This document shows, one piece after another, positions 10,512 through 20,304 of a stretch of 25,282 bases of DNA (the first letter of the stretch is position 1; the number at the start of each line of letters is the position of its first letter). The stretch is taken from positions 1 through 25,282 of IMG/VR virus record IMGVR_UViG_3300025732_000246; one strand, given 5' to 3'. The notes beneath the pieces are model-generated. The model had not been told where the DNA came from, searched no databases, and saw only the letters and a list, made by a program, of their open reading frames with translations. The DNA comes from a virus. Position numbers and translations under genes: made by a program.

Positions 10512-10898
10512 ATGTCTGCAATGTCCAACTATTTAGAGAATGCTCTAATCAATGAAGTTCTCCGCGCAACCAATTATGTTGCACCTACAACTGTCTATGT
10601 TGCACTGTTTACGAGTGACCCTACAGATGCTGGTACTGGTACTGAGTGCAGTGGTACAAGTTACGCTCGTCAGTCTGCTACTTTTGCTGCTCCCTCTAAT
10701 GGCGCTTCTAGCACTAGTGCAGATATTAATTTCCCGCAAGCTGGCGGTTCATGGGGAACCATCACCCACTTCGGTATTTATGACGCTCTCACTAGTGGCA
10801 ATCTGTTGGTGCATGGTGCTTTGACCACTTCCAAGACAATCGACACGGGCGATGTGTTCAAAATCGCTAGTGGCTCACTGACTGTAACCTTTGCGTAA
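10512..10898 (+). CDS. Small conserved virion/tail protein
   Basis: This 128-aa protein contains NYLENALINEVLRATNYVAP, TTVYVALFTSDPTDAGTG and WGTITHFGIYDALTSGNLLV. This arrangement is very common in phages and metagenomic viral contigs, where it is usually left unnamed or called tail-fibre-like. It is almost certainly a beta-rich structural protein, but its exact place in the particle is unknown to me. The ATG at 10512 follows AGAGGT at about 7 nt; a second ATG at 10521 gives a shorter version starting MSNYLE. It is followed by the repeat protein with a 1-bp overlap (TAATG). Confidence 0.8.
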   Translation: MSAMSNYLENALINEVLRATNYVAPTTVYVALFTSDPTDAGTGTECSGTSYARQSATFAAPSNGASSTSADINFPQAGGSWGTITHFGIYDALTSGNLLVHGALTTSKTIDTGDVFKIASGSLTVTFA

Positions 10899-11788
10899 TG
10901 GCTGATGTTTGTGGCCCATTCACGCTTGAACAGCTAGACCTATTCGGGAGCATTGATAGTCTAGCCTTCTCGCTTGATTCAACCGTTTGGACTGATGCAA
11001 ATGTCTGCATCATTGAAGCGGCGGCATCCGTATCGGGTGCAGGGTCAGTCAACGCAGTGCCAAGCGCAATATGGCGCGGCGCATCGTCTGTCAGTAGCAC
11101 AGCAACAACGCAGATTACTTACATCCGTGTAAGGAATTCAAGCGCATCTGTAAACAGCACCGCTACATCTTCTTCCGGCTCACAAGTCACCTATGTTTCA
11201 AGTGCTTCGATTACGGGGCTTGGAACGGTCTCGGGTGACGGGATAAGGGTAAGGTTAGGCTCAAGTTCAATCAGTGGCATAGCGACCGTTCTAGCGGCTG
11301 GAAACGGCATCTACTCAAGCGGAGCATCGGTCTCCGGCTCTGCTTCGATCATTGGTGACGGTTATCGGGTACGAGAGGGCGCGGCTAATCTGTCCGGTGC
11401 GGCTACGGTCTCGGCTGCGGCAATCAGAATCAGAACCTCAAGCGGGTCGATCAATGGGACTACTAGCGTCTCGGCTCTCGGTGGGTTGGTCTCAAGTGCT
11501 GCGGGTATTCTTGATGGAATAGCGACCGTCTCGGCTGTGCCATCGGTGACATTTCAAGCACAAATGTCGATCAGTGGGACAGTGACGATTTCTTGTATTG
11601 GCATCCGATTGGGTGACAATTGGTCAAATGTCGCGGCAGACTCAAACACATGGACTGATGTTAGTGCTGGTGGCAACACATGGACAACCGTAACTGCTGA
11701 CGCGAATACATGGACAGATGTGGGAACATCGGGAAATACATGGACAGACACCGCAACGAATTCAAATGAATGGTTAAGGAACGGATGA
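10898..11788 (+). CDS. Repeat-rich putative tail/virion protein
   Basis: This 296-aa Ser/Ala/Gly/Thr-rich protein has three parts. The N-terminal 35 residues contain TLEQLDLFGSIDSLAFSLDS, a motif that recurs in the neighbouring nozzle-like protein. Residues about 41-236 hold roughly ten imperfect repeats of about 20 aa, with consensus S(I/V)SGxAxVSAxxIRxR. Residues 247-296 hold five exact-length 10-aa repeats built on NTWTD, with a decayed sixth copy just before. Such regular beta-forming repeats fit an exposed, elongated virion protein, perhaps a tail appendage or surface-binding protein. I know no named family, and function is inferred from composition and from its place among tail genes. 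There are two cysteines in the N-terminal part and one near residue 231. Confidence 0.75.
   Translation: MADVCGPFTLEQLDLFGSIDSLAFSLDSTVWTDANVCIIEAAASVSGAGSVNAVPSAIWRGASSVSSTATTQITYIRVRNSSASVNSTATSSSGSQVTYVSSASITGLGTVSGDGIRVRLGSSSISGIATVLAAGNGIYSSGASVSGSASIIGDGYRVREGAANLSGAATVSAAAIRIRTSSGSINGTTSVSALGGLVSSAAGILDGIATVSAVPSVTFQAQMSISGTVTISCIGIRLGDNWSNVAADSNTWTDVSAGGNTWTTVTADANTWTDVGTSGNTWTDTATNSNEWLRNG
11018..11605 (+). repeat. About ten ~20-aa coding repeats (VSGxAxVSA type)
   Basis: Within the 296-aa gene the protein repeats units such as ASVSGAGSVNA, SSISGIATVLA, ASVSGSASIIG, ANLSGAATVSA and MSISGTVTISC, each followed by a basic IRxR-like segment or a variant. Unit length varies between about 19 and 23 aa. 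DNA similarity is partial (for example repeated GTCTCGGCT around 11408, 11467 and 11529), so the array is old or under selection at protein level. Confidence 0.7.
11636..11785 (+). repeat. Five 30-bp tandem repeats (NTWTD)
   Basis: Five consecutive 30-bp units encode ADSNTWTDVS, AGGNTWTTVT, ADANTWTDVG, TSGNTWTDTA and TNSNEWLRNG, ending at the stop. The core AA(C/T)ACATGGAC is nearly identical in the first four at DNA level. A degenerate sixth unit (RLGDNWSNVA) lies just before. This strict periodicity suggests copy-number change by slippage or recombination. Confidence 0.85.
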
Positions 11789-13437
11789 TGCCTACTCAAA
11801 GAATCGCATTAGGTGAATGGCTCCCCGATCAGCCGGGGCTAACGGGGGCATTGACGGTTGCAAAGAACTGTTATCCGGTTTCTGCGGGTTATGGTGCTTT
11901 TCCATCTGAGGCCAATTTCTCGGCAGCGGCTGCGGAAGATTTGACCTCCATCATTTCTGCCAAAGACCAAAGCGGAACTACCAAACTGTTCGCGGCGGGG
12001 TTGCACAAGATTTACTCTGTTGATTCGGTTGGTGCTTTGACGGGTGTGTTCAGCTACACGGGCACATATTCCCAAAGCGGAACGACCACACTAACGGTAA
12101 CCTCCATTGCCCACAAGCTGAAAACCGGAGATTCTGTTTATTTGGACTTCACAAGCGGAACGGCGGCAGACGGTCAATTTACCGTTACCAAAATCAACGC
12201 TGACAGCTTTTCGATCACGACCACATCTGCGACCACATCGGGCAATGTGACCATCTCGTCTATCTCTTTGGGATACAACACGGGCGCAAGTGATCGGTTT
12301 CGCTTCACCCTATTTGGTAATCAGATCATTGGGACAAACTTCACTGAAAGGCTACAAGTCTATTCAGCGGACAGCAGTTCTTCATTCAAGAATCTGTCGG
12401 ACAGTGCCCCAATCGCAAAGTTCATCACTGTGGTGCGGGATTTTGTGGTGTGCGCCCATCTTTATGAGAGTGGCACGACAAAGCCATATCGAGTGCGTTG
12501 GTCGGCAATCAATGACGAAACCGATTGGGTGGAGAATGTAAACACTCAATCCGATTATCAAGACATTCCCGATGGTGGTCACATCACGGGCATTCGCGGT
12601 GGCGAGTTCGGAATCATTCTCATGGAGAAGTCAATCTCCCGCATGAGTTACGCCGGAACACCGTTCATCTTCCAATTCGACAACATATCGCGGGGCAAGG
12701 GCTGTATTGCTGCGGGGTCGGTGTGTCAGTATCAAGGGCTGACATTCTTCTTGTCTGACGATGGCTTTTATGTCTGTGATGGGCAAAAAGTCACGCCTAT
12801 CGGTGCGGAGAAGATTGATCGATTTTTCTTCAACGATGCGAATTTGGACTTCACCACAATGTCGGCGGCGGCAGACCCCATCCGCAAGATGATTATGTGG
12901 AACTACCTATCGAATGATGGGACAAGAAAACTGCTCGTGTACAACTTCACGATCAACAAGTGGTCATTGATGGAGACCACATCTGATTACATTTCAGACG
13001 CATCTACCGCATCTGTGACGCTTGAACAGTTGGATTCAATCAACGCCTCAATCGATGCTTTGCCCGTCAGTATGGATTCTGCTTTGTACACCGGAGGAAA
13101 GTATTTTCTCGGTGGCACTGATGGGGCGCGGGTTATCACCTTCACGGGCGCAAACAAATCAGCGGTGCTAGAGACGGGCGACATTGATGCGGGACGCTCG
13201 ATAGTGATGTTGGCCCGTCCTTTGGTGGATAACGGCTCTGCGAGTGTTTCTGTGGCCTCTCGGACGCTTCTCACGCAAAGTCTGTCATACAGCACTGCGG
13301 CAACGGCTGATGCTGATAACCGTGTATCGCTTAGAAGTTCGGGAAAGTACCACAGACTTCGGATGCAACCAACTGGCGACAATTGGAAAACCGCTATGGG
13401 GTTGGACATTGACATTGTTCCGCAGGGTGTACGCTGA
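11788..13437 (+). CDS. Putative tail nozzle / tail-tubular-like protein
   Basis: The frame gives 550 aa from the ATG at 11788 (MPTQRIALGEWLPDQPGLTG), which lies 7 nt after AAGGA and overlaps the previous stop (TGATG). An ATG at 11785 is nearly as good. Blocks such as LTVAKNCYPVSAGYGAFPS, TKLFAAGLHKIYSV, VRWSAINDETDW and GEFGIILMEKSISRMSY recur in large tail proteins of podovirus-like phages that follow the adaptor gene. That gene order suggests a nozzle or beta-propeller tail hub comparable in role to T7 gp12; this is inference. Near residues 410-435 it carries TLEQLDSINASIDALPVSMD, resembling the N-terminus of the preceding repeat protein. Its stop overlaps the next start (TGATG). Confidence 0.72.
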   Translation: MPTQRIALGEWLPDQPGLTGALTVAKNCYPVSAGYGAFPSEANFSAAAAEDLTSIISAKDQSGTTKLFAAGLHKIYSVDSVGALTGVFSYTGTYSQSGTTTLTVTSIAHKLKTGDSVYLDFTSGTAADGQFTVTKINADSFSITTTSATTSGNVTISSISLGYNTGASDRFRFTLFGNQIIGTNFTERLQVYSADSSSSFKNLSDSAPIAKFITVVRDFVVCAHLYESGTTKPYRVRWSAINDETDWVENVNTQSDYQDIPDGGHITGIRGGEFGIILMEKSISRMSYAGTPFIFQFDNISRGKGCIAAGSVCQYQGLTFFLSDDGFYVCDGQKVTPIGAEKIDRFFFNDANLDFTTMSAAADPIRKMIMWNYLSNDGTRKLLVYNFTINKWSLMETTSDYISDASTASVTLEQLDSINASIDALPVSMDSALYTGGKYFLGGTDGARVITFTGANKSAVLETGDIDAGRSIVMLARPLVDNGSASVSVASRTLLTQSLSYSTAATADADNRVSLRSSGKYHRLRMQPTGDNWKTAMGLDIDIVPQGVR

Positions 13438-14216
13438 TGTTTAGGATTCTTCCTTATGCCGGAGGTGACCCGCGCACAGTTGCGGAAGTCGTCAATGGCA
13501 TCATGAACGGCAAGACCAATAACACGGGAACAATCACGCTTGCCACCGGAGGCGCTACCACTACGACTATCACTGATAGACGCATTGGGCCGGACAGCAT
13601 CATCTTGCTTACTCCACTCACGGCAGCGGCAAATGTTGATTCTGTGCCATACGGGGCTTTTCAAGACACCACCGATCAAACAATCGCAAGCACGACCACC
13701 GCTTATGCGATGACCTTCAACACGACAGACTACGCAAACGGCGTATCTATCGAATCAAGTTCGCATCTGAAAGTCATAAACGCGGGGGTCTATAACATCC
13801 AATGGTCGGGACAATTCCAAAACACTGACACACAGCTTCACGATGTATCGGTGTGGCTCAGAAAGAACGGAACCAATGTAGCAGGGTCAACGGGGTTTAT
13901 TTCCATCCCCAACAGTCACGGCGGTGTGGATGGTCACATCATTGCGGGATGGAACTACTTTATTGAACTTGCGGCAAATGACTATGTTGAACTCATGTGG
14001 TCGGCTACAAACACAGCGATTAGCCTACAGCACTACCCTGCCGGAACATCCCCCACAAGGCCCACCACAGCATCCCTAATTGCTACATTAAGCTATGTGA
14101 ACACATCATCATCGTTCAATGTGTTCGTCAGTTCACGGGGACAAGGAACCGCAACGCTCACGCACTTTGCAAACTCAACTGCCGACAAAACCTATGGGTA
14201 TGTGATTGTTGGCTGA
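13437..14216 (+). CDS. Virion protein with inserted TNF/C1q-like domain
   Basis: This 259-aa protein begins with residues 1-66 (GGDPRTVAEVVNGIMNGKTN, then ITDRRIGPDSIILLTP) and ends with residues about 227-259 (VFVSSRGQGTATLTHFAN, then KTYGYVIVG). I know these two pieces as one continuous small virion domain of roughly 100 aa in many phages. Between them lie about 155 residues with the pattern of a TNF/C1q-like jelly roll: GVYNIQWSGQFQNTD, VSVWLRKNG, PNSHGGVDGHIIAGWNYFIE, NDYVELMWS and a closing ASLIATLSYV strand. Jelly rolls of this type usually trimerise and bind ligands, so the insert may be a receptor-binding or surface-exposed knob. The start overlaps the previous stop (TGATG) after an AGGGTG ribosome site. 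Confidence 0.78.
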   Translation: MFRILPYAGGDPRTVAEVVNGIMNGKTNNTGTITLATGGATTTTITDRRIGPDSIILLTPLTAAANVDSVPYGAFQDTTDQTIASTTTAYAMTFNTTDYANGVSIESSSHLKVINAGVYNIQWSGQFQNTDTQLHDVSVWLRKNGTNVAGSTGFISIPNSHGGVDGHIIAGWNYFIELAANDYVELMWSATNTAISLQHYPAGTSPTRPTTASLIATLSYVNTSSSFNVFVSSRGQGTATLTHFANSTADKTYGYVIVG

Positions 14217-14272: not shown

Positions 14273-15196
14273 ATGGCAACGGAAATTGCAACCACATCGC
14301 AGACAACGCAGATTGACCCCGCGATACAGCCATATCTCACTTATGGCCTTGAACAAGCAAAAGCACAATACTTAGGTGGTGGCCCAAAATACTACCCGGG
14401 TCAAACCTATGTAGGCCCATCTGAACCCACTCAAACGGCCCTACAAGCCCTACAAGCAAGGGCAATGGCGGGTAACCCTTTACTCGGTATCGCGCAAGGC
14501 AATGTTCGCGGTATGTTGGAGGGTGACTATCTCGGCGGCAATCCGTTCTTTCAAGGCGCATTCCAACCCGCTGCAACTGCGGCACAAATGGCCTTTCAAA
14601 AGACCATTGGCGACATTTCTTCCGCTGCCTCCAAAGCCGGACGATATGGCTCCGGTGCGATGGGAACTCTGCAAAATCAAGCGGCGGGAACCTTTGCCCA
14701 AAAGCTAGCAGACACTGCGGGTCGGCTCTCTTATGAGAACTACGCTCAAGAAAGAGCAAACCAAATGAGAGCGCTCGGATTGGCTCCAACTCTCGCAGAG
14801 GCCGATTATGGCGACATAAACAAATTGTTGGGCGCTGGTCAACTCGGTGAGGGTTATCAACAGACCGCACTTCAAGCGGACATTGCCCGACAGCAGTACG
14901 AGCAAAAATTGCCTCAACAGCAATTGCAAAACTATCTGAATATGGTTTATGGCTTCCCTGCTGGCAAAACCACCACCACACAAACGCCGATGTACACCAA
15001 CCCCACCGCTACGGCATTGGGTACGGGCTTGCTCGGACTGAATGTGTTTAACGCTGCAAACAAAGCGACCGGAGGTGGCTTGTCTGATGTGTTTAGAGGC
15101 GGTTGGAATTACTTAACAAGCGGTTTTAATAGCCCCGTCAACACGGGTCTATATGATGACTATTCAAGACGCAACGAAGTAGATACCAATTTCTGA
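14273..15196 (+). CDS. Putative internal virion/ejection protein A
   Basis: This 307-aa protein starts after an AAAGGA ribosome site. It contains the conserved-looking segment YYPGQTYVGPSEPTQTALQA (about residues 40-60), then Ala/Gln-rich helices (AAQMAFQKTIGDISSAASKA, and GRYGSGAMGTLQ). A Gly-rich hydrophobic stretch follows near residues 242-262 (TALGTGLLGLNVFNAA), and the C-terminus is polar. Phage genes of this type, placed after tail genes and before two longer helical proteins, are usually left unnamed. The set of three resembles in size and order the internal core or ejection proteins that podoviruses inject to form a DNA conduit. I infer that role; no lytic transglycosylase motif is visible. 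Confidence 0.65.
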   Translation: MATEIATTSQTTQIDPAIQPYLTYGLEQAKAQYLGGGPKYYPGQTYVGPSEPTQTALQALQARAMAGNPLLGIAQGNVRGMLEGDYLGGNPFFQGAFQPAATAAQMAFQKTIGDISSAASKAGRYGSGAMGTLQNQAAGTFAQKLADTAGRLSYENYAQERANQMRALGLAPTLAEADYGDINKLLGAGQLGEGYQQTALQADIARQQYEQKLPQQQLQNYLNMVYGFPAGKTTTTQTPMYTNPTATALGTGLLGLNVFNAANKATGGGLSDVFRGGWNYLTSGFNSPVNTGLYDDYSRRNEVDTNF

Positions 15197-18831: not shown

Positions 18832-20304
18832 ATGCCAAAGACAAAAATCAGCGAGTACAGTGCAACCGCTAACTCAAACACAGATGTAGCATCAATCAAC
18901 ATTGATGAGGGCTGCGCCCCGAGTGGCATCAATAACGCCATTCGCGCCATCATGGGCCATCTGAAAGACTTTCAGAGTGGAACATCAAACGACCCCTTCA
19001 CCATTGGCTCTAGTGGCTCTCTAACGCTGTCCTACGGCACTGCCAACGGCGTTGCTTACCTCAATGGAAGCAAAGCAGTTACATCGGGCAGTGCGCTGAC
19101 TTTTGATGGGACAAACTTTGCCACCACTGGTACAGCATCTGCAACTAAGATGATTCCTACTGGTGGCTCTGCAACAGGCAATGGAATGTACTTGCCTGCA
19201 TCCAATACTTTGGCTTGGAGCAATAACGGCTCTGAGACTATGCGCCTTGACAGCGCAGGCAACCTTGGATTGGGTGTTACGCCTAGTGCTTGGGGCGGCT
19301 CGTTTAAAGCATTACAAATTGGACTTGGCACTTCGCTGTACAACAACGCCAGTGGAAACGGAACTTTTTTGGGTTCCAATTTTTATTGGGATGGCACAAA
19401 CAACAAATATCTAAACACCAATACTGCAACGGCATACGGGCAAAGTGCTGGTGCTCACCAGTGGTACACAGCCGCCTCCGGCACAGCAGGCAACGCCATC
19501 ACCTTCACCCAAGCAATGACGCTTGATGCTAGTGGGAATTTGGGTATTGGTACTACAAGTCCAGATACAAAATTGAATACCGAAGGCGGTAGTTTGCGCG
19601 TATCTGGAACTAGAACAGCGGGTTCATTTTTGGATGTTGCGCCGAGTAACACAGGAACAGATGGTGTTGCATTTAGCGTTAGTTACTATGGTTCTGGAAA
19701 TTATGGCCCATTGAAGTTCACCACAGGCGGCTCAGAACGAGCCCGTATCGACTCCAGCGGTAACTTGCTGGTGGGGGCGACAAGCGGTAGTGGCTTGGGT
19801 TCTTCAAAGATATATGTTTTGACCAACAATCAAAACGGCATTATTTCTCAACAGTCTGTCACTGGTTCATATTGCTATTTGTCAAACGCCTTATCAAACG
19901 GTGGCACTTACTATCATTTTCAATTTAACGAAAATGGAACGCAACGTGGTTTAATTTCTTCCAACGGAAGTGCTACCACCTACGGCACTTCATCTGATTA
20001 TCGGTTGAAGGAAAACATTGCTCCCATGACGGGCGCTTTGTCCACTGTTGCTCAACTTAAGCCATGTACATACACATGGAAAGAATCGGGCATAACAAGT
20101 CAGGGATTTATTGCACATGAGCTTCAGGCGATTGTCCCTGATGCGGTTGTCGGCGAAAAAGATGCAGTCAATGAAGATGGCTCAATCAAACCGCAAAGCA
20201 TCGACACTAGCTTCTTGGTTGCAACGCTGACTGCCGCAATCCAAGAGCAACAAGCCCTCATCACCCAACTGCAAGCCGATGTAGCGGCGCTTAAAGGAGC
20301 ATAA
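18832..20304 (+). CDS. Tail fibre with C-terminal S74 chaperone domain
   Basis: This 490-aa protein has a virion-binding-like N-terminus (KISEYSATANSNTDVASINI, then GCAPSGINNAIRAIMGHLKD) common to many phage tail fibres. The beta-rich shaft contains repeated units ending (R/T)LD(S/A)(A/S)GNLG(L/I)G. At about residue 388 it has SDYRLKENI, the signature start of the Peptidase S74 intramolecular chaperone domain, with GFIAHELQAIVPDAVVG following and a C-terminal coiled coil (QEQQALITQLQADVAALKG). In this family the chaperone trimerises the fibre and then cuts itself off at the Ser before Asp; S388 and the Lys of RLKE are the expected catalytic pair. It is the likely host-recognition fibre. AAGGA precedes the start. 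Confidence 0.92.
   Translation: MPKTKISEYSATANSNTDVASINIDEGCAPSGINNAIRAIMGHLKDFQSGTSNDPFTIGSSGSLTLSYGTANGVAYLNGSKAVTSGSALTFDGTNFATTGTASATKMIPTGGSATGNGMYLPASNTLAWSNNGSETMRLDSAGNLGLGVTPSAWGGSFKALQIGLGTSLYNNASGNGTFLGSNFYWDGTNNKYLNTNTATAYGQSAGAHQWYTAASGTAGNAITFTQAMTLDASGNLGIGTTSPDTKLNTEGGSLRVSGTRTAGSFLDVAPSNTGTDGVAFSVSYYGSGNYGPLKFTTGGSERARIDSSGNLLVGATSGSGLGSSKIYVLTNNQNGIISQQSVTGSYCYLSNALSNGGTYYHFQFNENGTQRGLISSNGSATTYGTSSDYRLKENIAPMTGALSTVAQLKPCTYTWKESGITSQGFIAHELQAIVPDAVVGEKDAVNEDGSIKPQSIDTSFLVATLTAAIQEQQALITQLQADVAALKGA

Follow-up and report, generated by a model that had tools for sequence, protein, structure and literature searches.

The locus and its neighboring genes

The analyzed stretch of 25,282 nucleotides, in the following called the window, contains the late region of a short-tailed phage, an aquatic virus of bacteria. 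It encodes a portal of the SU10 type (Pfam SU10_portal, E 5.8e-224), a scaffold, a major capsid protein, small connector genes, and a nozzle, which is followed by the gene under study, here named the knob gene, an ejection-like protein, two large proteins, and a separate S74 tail fiber (18832-20304). The knob gene (13437..14216, plus strand; ORF list and translation) encodes a protein of 259 aa. It overlaps the nozzle gene by one base, as its start codon begins with the last base of the nozzle stop codon. The upstream neighbor (11770..13437, plus strand) encodes the nozzle protein of 555 aa, which matches nozzle chains of solved phage structures (PDB 8zkk, "nozzle gp16", E 4e-13; 9nwi, E 1.5e-9), and the downstream neighbor (14273..15196, plus strand) encodes a protein similar to DNA ejection proteins (phrog_4287).

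At about residues 97-167 (about 12058-12270), the nozzle protein has an additional, optional module, which is about 70 residues long and weakly similar to an endosialidase beta-barrel (Pfam E 0.016; PDB 4hiz E 0.0066). The module is present in only 15 of 227 related nozzles, 14 of which adjoin knob-bearing genes. The gene preceding the nozzle gene (10898-11788) encodes a protein with a C-terminus of Trp repeats (about 11618-11785) that have a period of 10 (W...NTWTDV...NTW). These repeats also occur in phage C72C1 and are reminiscent of the Trp dock loop of the SU10 short fibers. A gene located 5' of the large terminase gene (738-2360) encodes a PBECR5 domain (Pfam E 3.9e-23), a phage Barnase-EndoU-ColicinE5/D-RelE-like nuclease, and therewith a toxin-type nuclease fold within the head gene cluster.

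An outer domain in two pieces

The product of the knob gene is an outer domain that is interrupted by a complete TNF/C1q-like knob, and the insertion is real. A profile HMM was built exclusively from insert-free proteins, excluding three insert-free relatives that nest among the inserted ones. It matched the window protein in two collinear pieces, residues 1-69 (92 bits) and residues 224-259 (29 bits), with no match above noise in the middle. The C-terminal 34 residues by themselves scored 33.3 bits (E 1.8e-6 for 1e6 sequences), compared to 7.5 bits for the best of about 1000 shuffles, and joining of the outer ends resulted in a single unbroken match of 133 bits. The alignment of insert-free with inserted proteins shows a single, clean gap of roughly 160 residues, and hhalign of the insert-free profile versus the inserted profile gave 99.9% over residues 1-68. 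The best boundaries are residues 1-66 and 226-259 for the outer parts and residues 68-224 for the knob.

The outer parts are composed of two elements. The N-terminal segment (residues 1-28; 13437..13520, plus strand) contains a helix (residues 12-23, DSSP on the model) and the motif GK.NN.G. It is the most conserved part of the protein and presumably the attachment segment. Model and profile agree in placing the first half of a tip domain at residues 29-66 (13521..13634, plus strand; strands 30-34, 40-46, and 55-60, helix 63-67) and its second half at residues 226-259 (14112..14213, plus strand; strands 230-235, 238-246, and 252-258). According to the models, the two halves would combine into a single small beta domain of the type present at the C-terminal tips of phage tailspikes. 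An insert-free relative, L323, was modeled separately (pLDDT 84.5), and its elements (helix 12-23; strands 30-34, 42-46, and 55-60; helix 63-66; strands 70-76, 79-84, and 93-99) have the same order as those of the window model after excision of the knob between helix 63-67 and strand 230-235. In the model of this relative, residues 28-100 have the tailspike tip-domain fold, and phage tailspikes lead the list of fold matches (depolymerase S2-4 of K64-1, Z 8.8; K1 capsule lyase, Z 8.0; Pam1, Z 7.6; Sf6, Z 6.1). However, the tips of these tailspikes form the end of a long enzyme spike, whereas the tip domain in the window makes up nearly the entire protein and accommodates the knob. The Pfam family K1-lyase_C did not match the window protein, and the best homolog, P0010, reached 16.1 bits, which is under the cut-off of 27. 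It has been described that the terminal lectin-like domain of another tailspike suffices for trimerization (PMC13082707), and by analogy a trimer is therefore plausible also for the window protein.

The inserted knob

The AlphaFold2 model of the window protein, which was calculated from an alignment of 65 rows and is, like all AlphaFold2 structures used here, a monomer prediction, has a mean pLDDT of 88 and a pTM of 0.70. It consists of two separate folds, and the hinges of low confidence, residues 61-70 and 221-230, coincide with the two joints. The knob (residues 68-224; 13638..14108, plus strand), delimited by its fold matches and by its absence from insert-free homologs, is a ten-stranded TNF/C1q jelly roll, mostly with pLDDT values over 90. 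The best fold match was BxpB (VIA Z 17.1; best match with rmsd 2.1, 134 aligned), and further matches were the C1q domain of Caprin-2 (Z 16.0), the knob of the phi812 central spike (Z 15.9; 9eul), and EDA-A1 (Z 15.7). The same jelly-roll fold is present in the CBD of the A-1(L) short fiber (8ke9) and in the tail chain 9k09_A of cyanophage A4; these two and the phi812 chain were compared as fold matches only. The record KF356199 had been considered as Anabaena phage A4 and was rejected, as it is a Microcystis phage. The Pam3 fiber gp24 also has this fold, but there it is one of several serial domains (PMC9608196).

By sequence the knob is not a member of the Pfam C1q/TNF families, although it shares their fold: the window protein had no match to these families, and its homologs stayed under the cut-off. 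The window protein, its joined ends, and its middle gave no usable match in PHROGs or Pfam. PDB sequence searches with two of our profiles (A3 and A4) revealed no relative, and neither a structure of a homolog nor one of this virion was found. A published account of such an insertion was not found in the literature searched.

In two homologs, L191:6154-7128 and L269 (minus strand), an extra module of about 65 residues lies within the knob, right after PYGEFQD. The arrangement is thus nested twice, with a module inside the knob and the knob inside the tip domain.

Relatives without the knob and knobs without the outer parts

Homolog searches covered public collections, a subset of all sequences. 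In annotated phages, insert-free relatives of about 104 residues occupy the identical place directly after the nozzle gene, for example gp48 (104 aa) of the Methylophilales phage Venkman, an isolate from a cultured host, and the respective proteins of C72C1, ctDrO704, and Bradyrhizobium phage ppBeUSDA76-2. About 90 distinct IMG/VR proteins consist of the outer parts only. A scan of genome contigs yielded only two Bradyrhizobium loci. Conversely, the middle without the ends, fused to other N-termini, is found in Limnohabitans phage DC33, ctQRb9, and Acinetobacter phage phiAC-1. DC33 (L083, PQ492659.1) is listed as a member of the Inoviridae, which is at odds with its size of 39 kb.

These results bear on an earlier note, made from the DNA sequence of the window, which had proposed that a loop of a small virion domain has accepted a complete TNF/C1q-type module, and that both parts occur independently in phage proteins. 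The two-piece profile match, the modeled jelly roll, the two independent distributions, and the insert-free homologs at the same locus bear out this proposal. Neither of the two outcomes that the note had named as refuting it was observed: the model does not show one continuous fold, and homologs lacking the insert are numerous and lie at the corresponding place in the gene order. The term "small virion domain" needs revision. The ends are not one undefined domain, but comprise an N-terminal helix plus a tailspike-tip-like domain, and the gene lies in the position of a tail needle gene. The alternative, one continuous fold without any insertion, the outer segments of which merely resemble a separate domain, has hardly any probability left. 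Inserted proteins are common and conserved along their whole length, yet no support for this view was found. It is contradicted by the insert-free homologs and the two-piece match, by the independent occurrence of the knob, and by the matching secondary structure of the insert-free model.

The knob modules of DC33, ctQRb9, and phiAC-1 are parts of head-region proteins, and in phiAC-1 the module is C-terminal to a Phage_cement_2-like domain encoded by the gene after the capsid gene. Analogously, the window protein might be a decoration or cement protein of the head that displays its knob on the capsid. We regard this as very improbable, because the three head-region proteins lack the outer parts, and because the knob gene of the window lies in the tail cluster, right behind the nozzle gene, and encodes an outer domain that resembles tailspike tips.

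Presence, absence, and exchange of the knob

The knob is polymorphic among close relatives. For example, the knob-less L174 and the knob-bearing L178 and L366 are 87-89% identical in their flanking DNA, which was compared for 1.66 kb on the upstream and about 2.4 kb on the downstream side. For L323, which lacks the knob, and L025, which has it, identity is 84% in the 3 kb upstream and 78% in the 1.26 kb downstream. In the comparison of L174 with L366, codons 1-30 are 93-100% identical and identity afterwards drops to 44%; therefore, in this case recombination replaced the entire tip and left the N-terminal segment in place. In L278 and L323, both flanks of the insertion site have remained of the inserted type. 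In a tree of the outer parts, 80 of 81 inserted rows fall into one starred branch, with L244 standing apart, and the insert-free L323, L278, and L320 are nested inside that branch. Parsimony on this tree requires four changes, but a single inserted clade was not rejected by the AU test (p 0.27). A claim of repeated gain and loss was therefore dropped, and we restrict the conclusion to a polymorphism of the knob, without giving a number of events.

Comparison of genes that have retained the knob revealed a second type of variation. Between the window and L051, identity is 88% upstream, 85% and 89% for the two outer parts, and 88% downstream, but only 61% for the knob. In some pairs the outer parts are at least 88% identical, yet knob identity is down to about a third. 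Swap pairs were defined by outer parts of at least 88% and knobs of at most 62% identity, and 164 such pairs were found, which derive from 82 genes and share genes, so that their number does not represent independent events. In these pairs, identity at silent fourfold sites amounts to 69% for the outer parts and to 47% for the knob, in contrast to 82% and 83%, respectively, in 434 control pairs. The pair L264 and L184 has silent-site identities of 89/44/88% (outer/knob/outer). The drop thus includes silent sites, and therefore the knob has been replaced as DNA, and not by amino acid change alone. Exposed phage surfaces often evolve fast, and this general behavior would be the basis for explaining the diversity of the knob by rapid amino acid evolution of an exposed surface instead of cassette exchange. 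In view of the silent sites, this explanation is very unlikely. From the sequence comparisons, the knob is exchanged as a cassette while the outer parts stay. The reciprocal combination, similar knobs (at least 85%) in dissimilar outer parts (at most 65%), was absent among 168 genes. The earlier note had supposed that the arrangement is a way to vary one part while attachment is kept, and cassette exchange lends it independent support. The virus can probably change the display at its tail tip without altering the part that holds the protein on.

Position in the virion and proposed function

The upstream gene matches solved nozzle proteins, and therefore the knob gene occupies the place of the tail needle gene of P22 and SU10. 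In P22, the gene for gp26 comes after that for gp10. In SU10, the gene for the needle gp18 directly follows that for the nozzle gp17, and three copies of gp18 plug the nozzle (PMC9509320). The nozzle of LUZ24 is related to that of the window, and the LUZ24 protein encoded after the nozzle matches a chain that is present three times in PDB 9nxp. The location directly downstream of the nozzle gene applies to the window and also to the insert-free relatives. In contrast, the coiled-coil shaft typical for the P22 and SU10 needles is missing, the only helices of the window protein being residues 12-23 and a few short ones. For this reason we do not assign the protein to the family of P22 gp26 and SU10 gp18, although it may work like one. 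SU10 gp18 is composed of a coiled coil and a beta-prism tip without a knob insertion. The Sf6/HS1-type needles of P22-like phages (PDB 3RWN, 4K6B) are similar to the window protein in having a gene after the nozzle gene and a TNF-like trimeric knob at the tip, which some relatives possess and others have replaced (PMC3741392), but their knob forms the C-terminal end of a long coiled-coil shaft, whereas that of the window is within a loop of a small tip domain. Profile searches of the PDB did not yield a sequence match between these needles and the window protein.

The best explanation of these results, which we consider fairly probable, is a trimeric protein at the tip of the nozzle that carries an exchangeable TNF-like knob; tip location, trimeric state, and receptor contact are the inferred parts of it. 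By analogy with the needles of P22 and SU10, the protein would be located at the nozzle mouth or inside it, and residues 1-28 would anchor it to the nozzle. The jelly roll would be inserted into the loop that connects the third strand of the tip domain with the fourth. TNF-fold and tailspike-tip-type domains are usually homotrimers, and the chain ends of the TNF fold lie near each other at the base of the trimer. Therefore, a trimeric guest would fit into a loop of a trimeric host with the symmetry kept. The knob would be the most exposed part, facing the cell, where it might bind a receptor, and its exchange or loss by recombination would alter the surface contact while attachment remains fixed. 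Its task may be receptor contact or, in analogy to P22, the timing of ejection. Changes at the P22 needle tip altered ejection kinetics, and the HS1/Sf6-type knob did not confer host specificity (PMC3741392).

A different location in the tail is unlikely, but less so than one on the head. The protein could be a short spike or fiber on the side of the nozzle or the adaptor, present as several trimers per virion with the knob pointing outward, instead of a central needle or plug. The similarity of the tip domain to the tips of lateral tailspikes is in agreement with this arrangement, as is the fact that the SU10 short fibers dock on Trp repeats (PMC9509320), with which the product of the gene in front of the window's nozzle gene ends. 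However, a gene that follows the nozzle gene has the position of a needle gene, while the short fiber gene of SU10 precedes the nozzle gene, and a dock in the window could be used by the separate S74 tail fiber.

TNF-like knobs at tail tips have already been known as end pieces or serial domains of fibers and needles. In the present family, the knob lies inside a loop of another tip domain, and among metagenomic relatives it is present, absent, or swapped in nearly identical flanking DNA. With these natural allele pairs, one could directly address the function of a tail-tip knob in adsorption, in host range, or in the timing of ejection, which the P22/Sf6 chimera work did not settle. In addition, a widespread family that is unnamed in Pfam and PHROGs scans gains a predicted structure and a testable role. 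As a tentative generalization, which is possible rather than probable, an exchangeable tail tip with two levels may be common in aquatic short-tailed phages. It would combine a fixed N-terminal segment, attached behind the nozzle, with a wholly replaceable tip domain, and the knob inside it could be replaced, lost, or equipped with a further module and would be a main, fast-recombining contact with the host at the exit of the DNA channel.

Other proteins encoded after a nozzle gene were also compared. A near-identical record of VP1 (PDB 8zkk) was absent from the phage collection searched, and the respective protein of a Vibrio relative of VP1 had no PDB match. An N-terminal anchor shared with the 49-aa protein of HTVC106P and with LUZ24 gp55 seemed plausible by eye, but was rejected, as the similarity of the N-terminal helix to these proteins was not significant (1% and 0.1% probability in hhalign). 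In HTVC106P-type pelagiphages (L369:4685-4834, L379-L458), the nozzle gene is directly followed by a gene for a protein of fixed size, and all 29 distinct sequences have 49 residues; this protein is perhaps a minimal plug.
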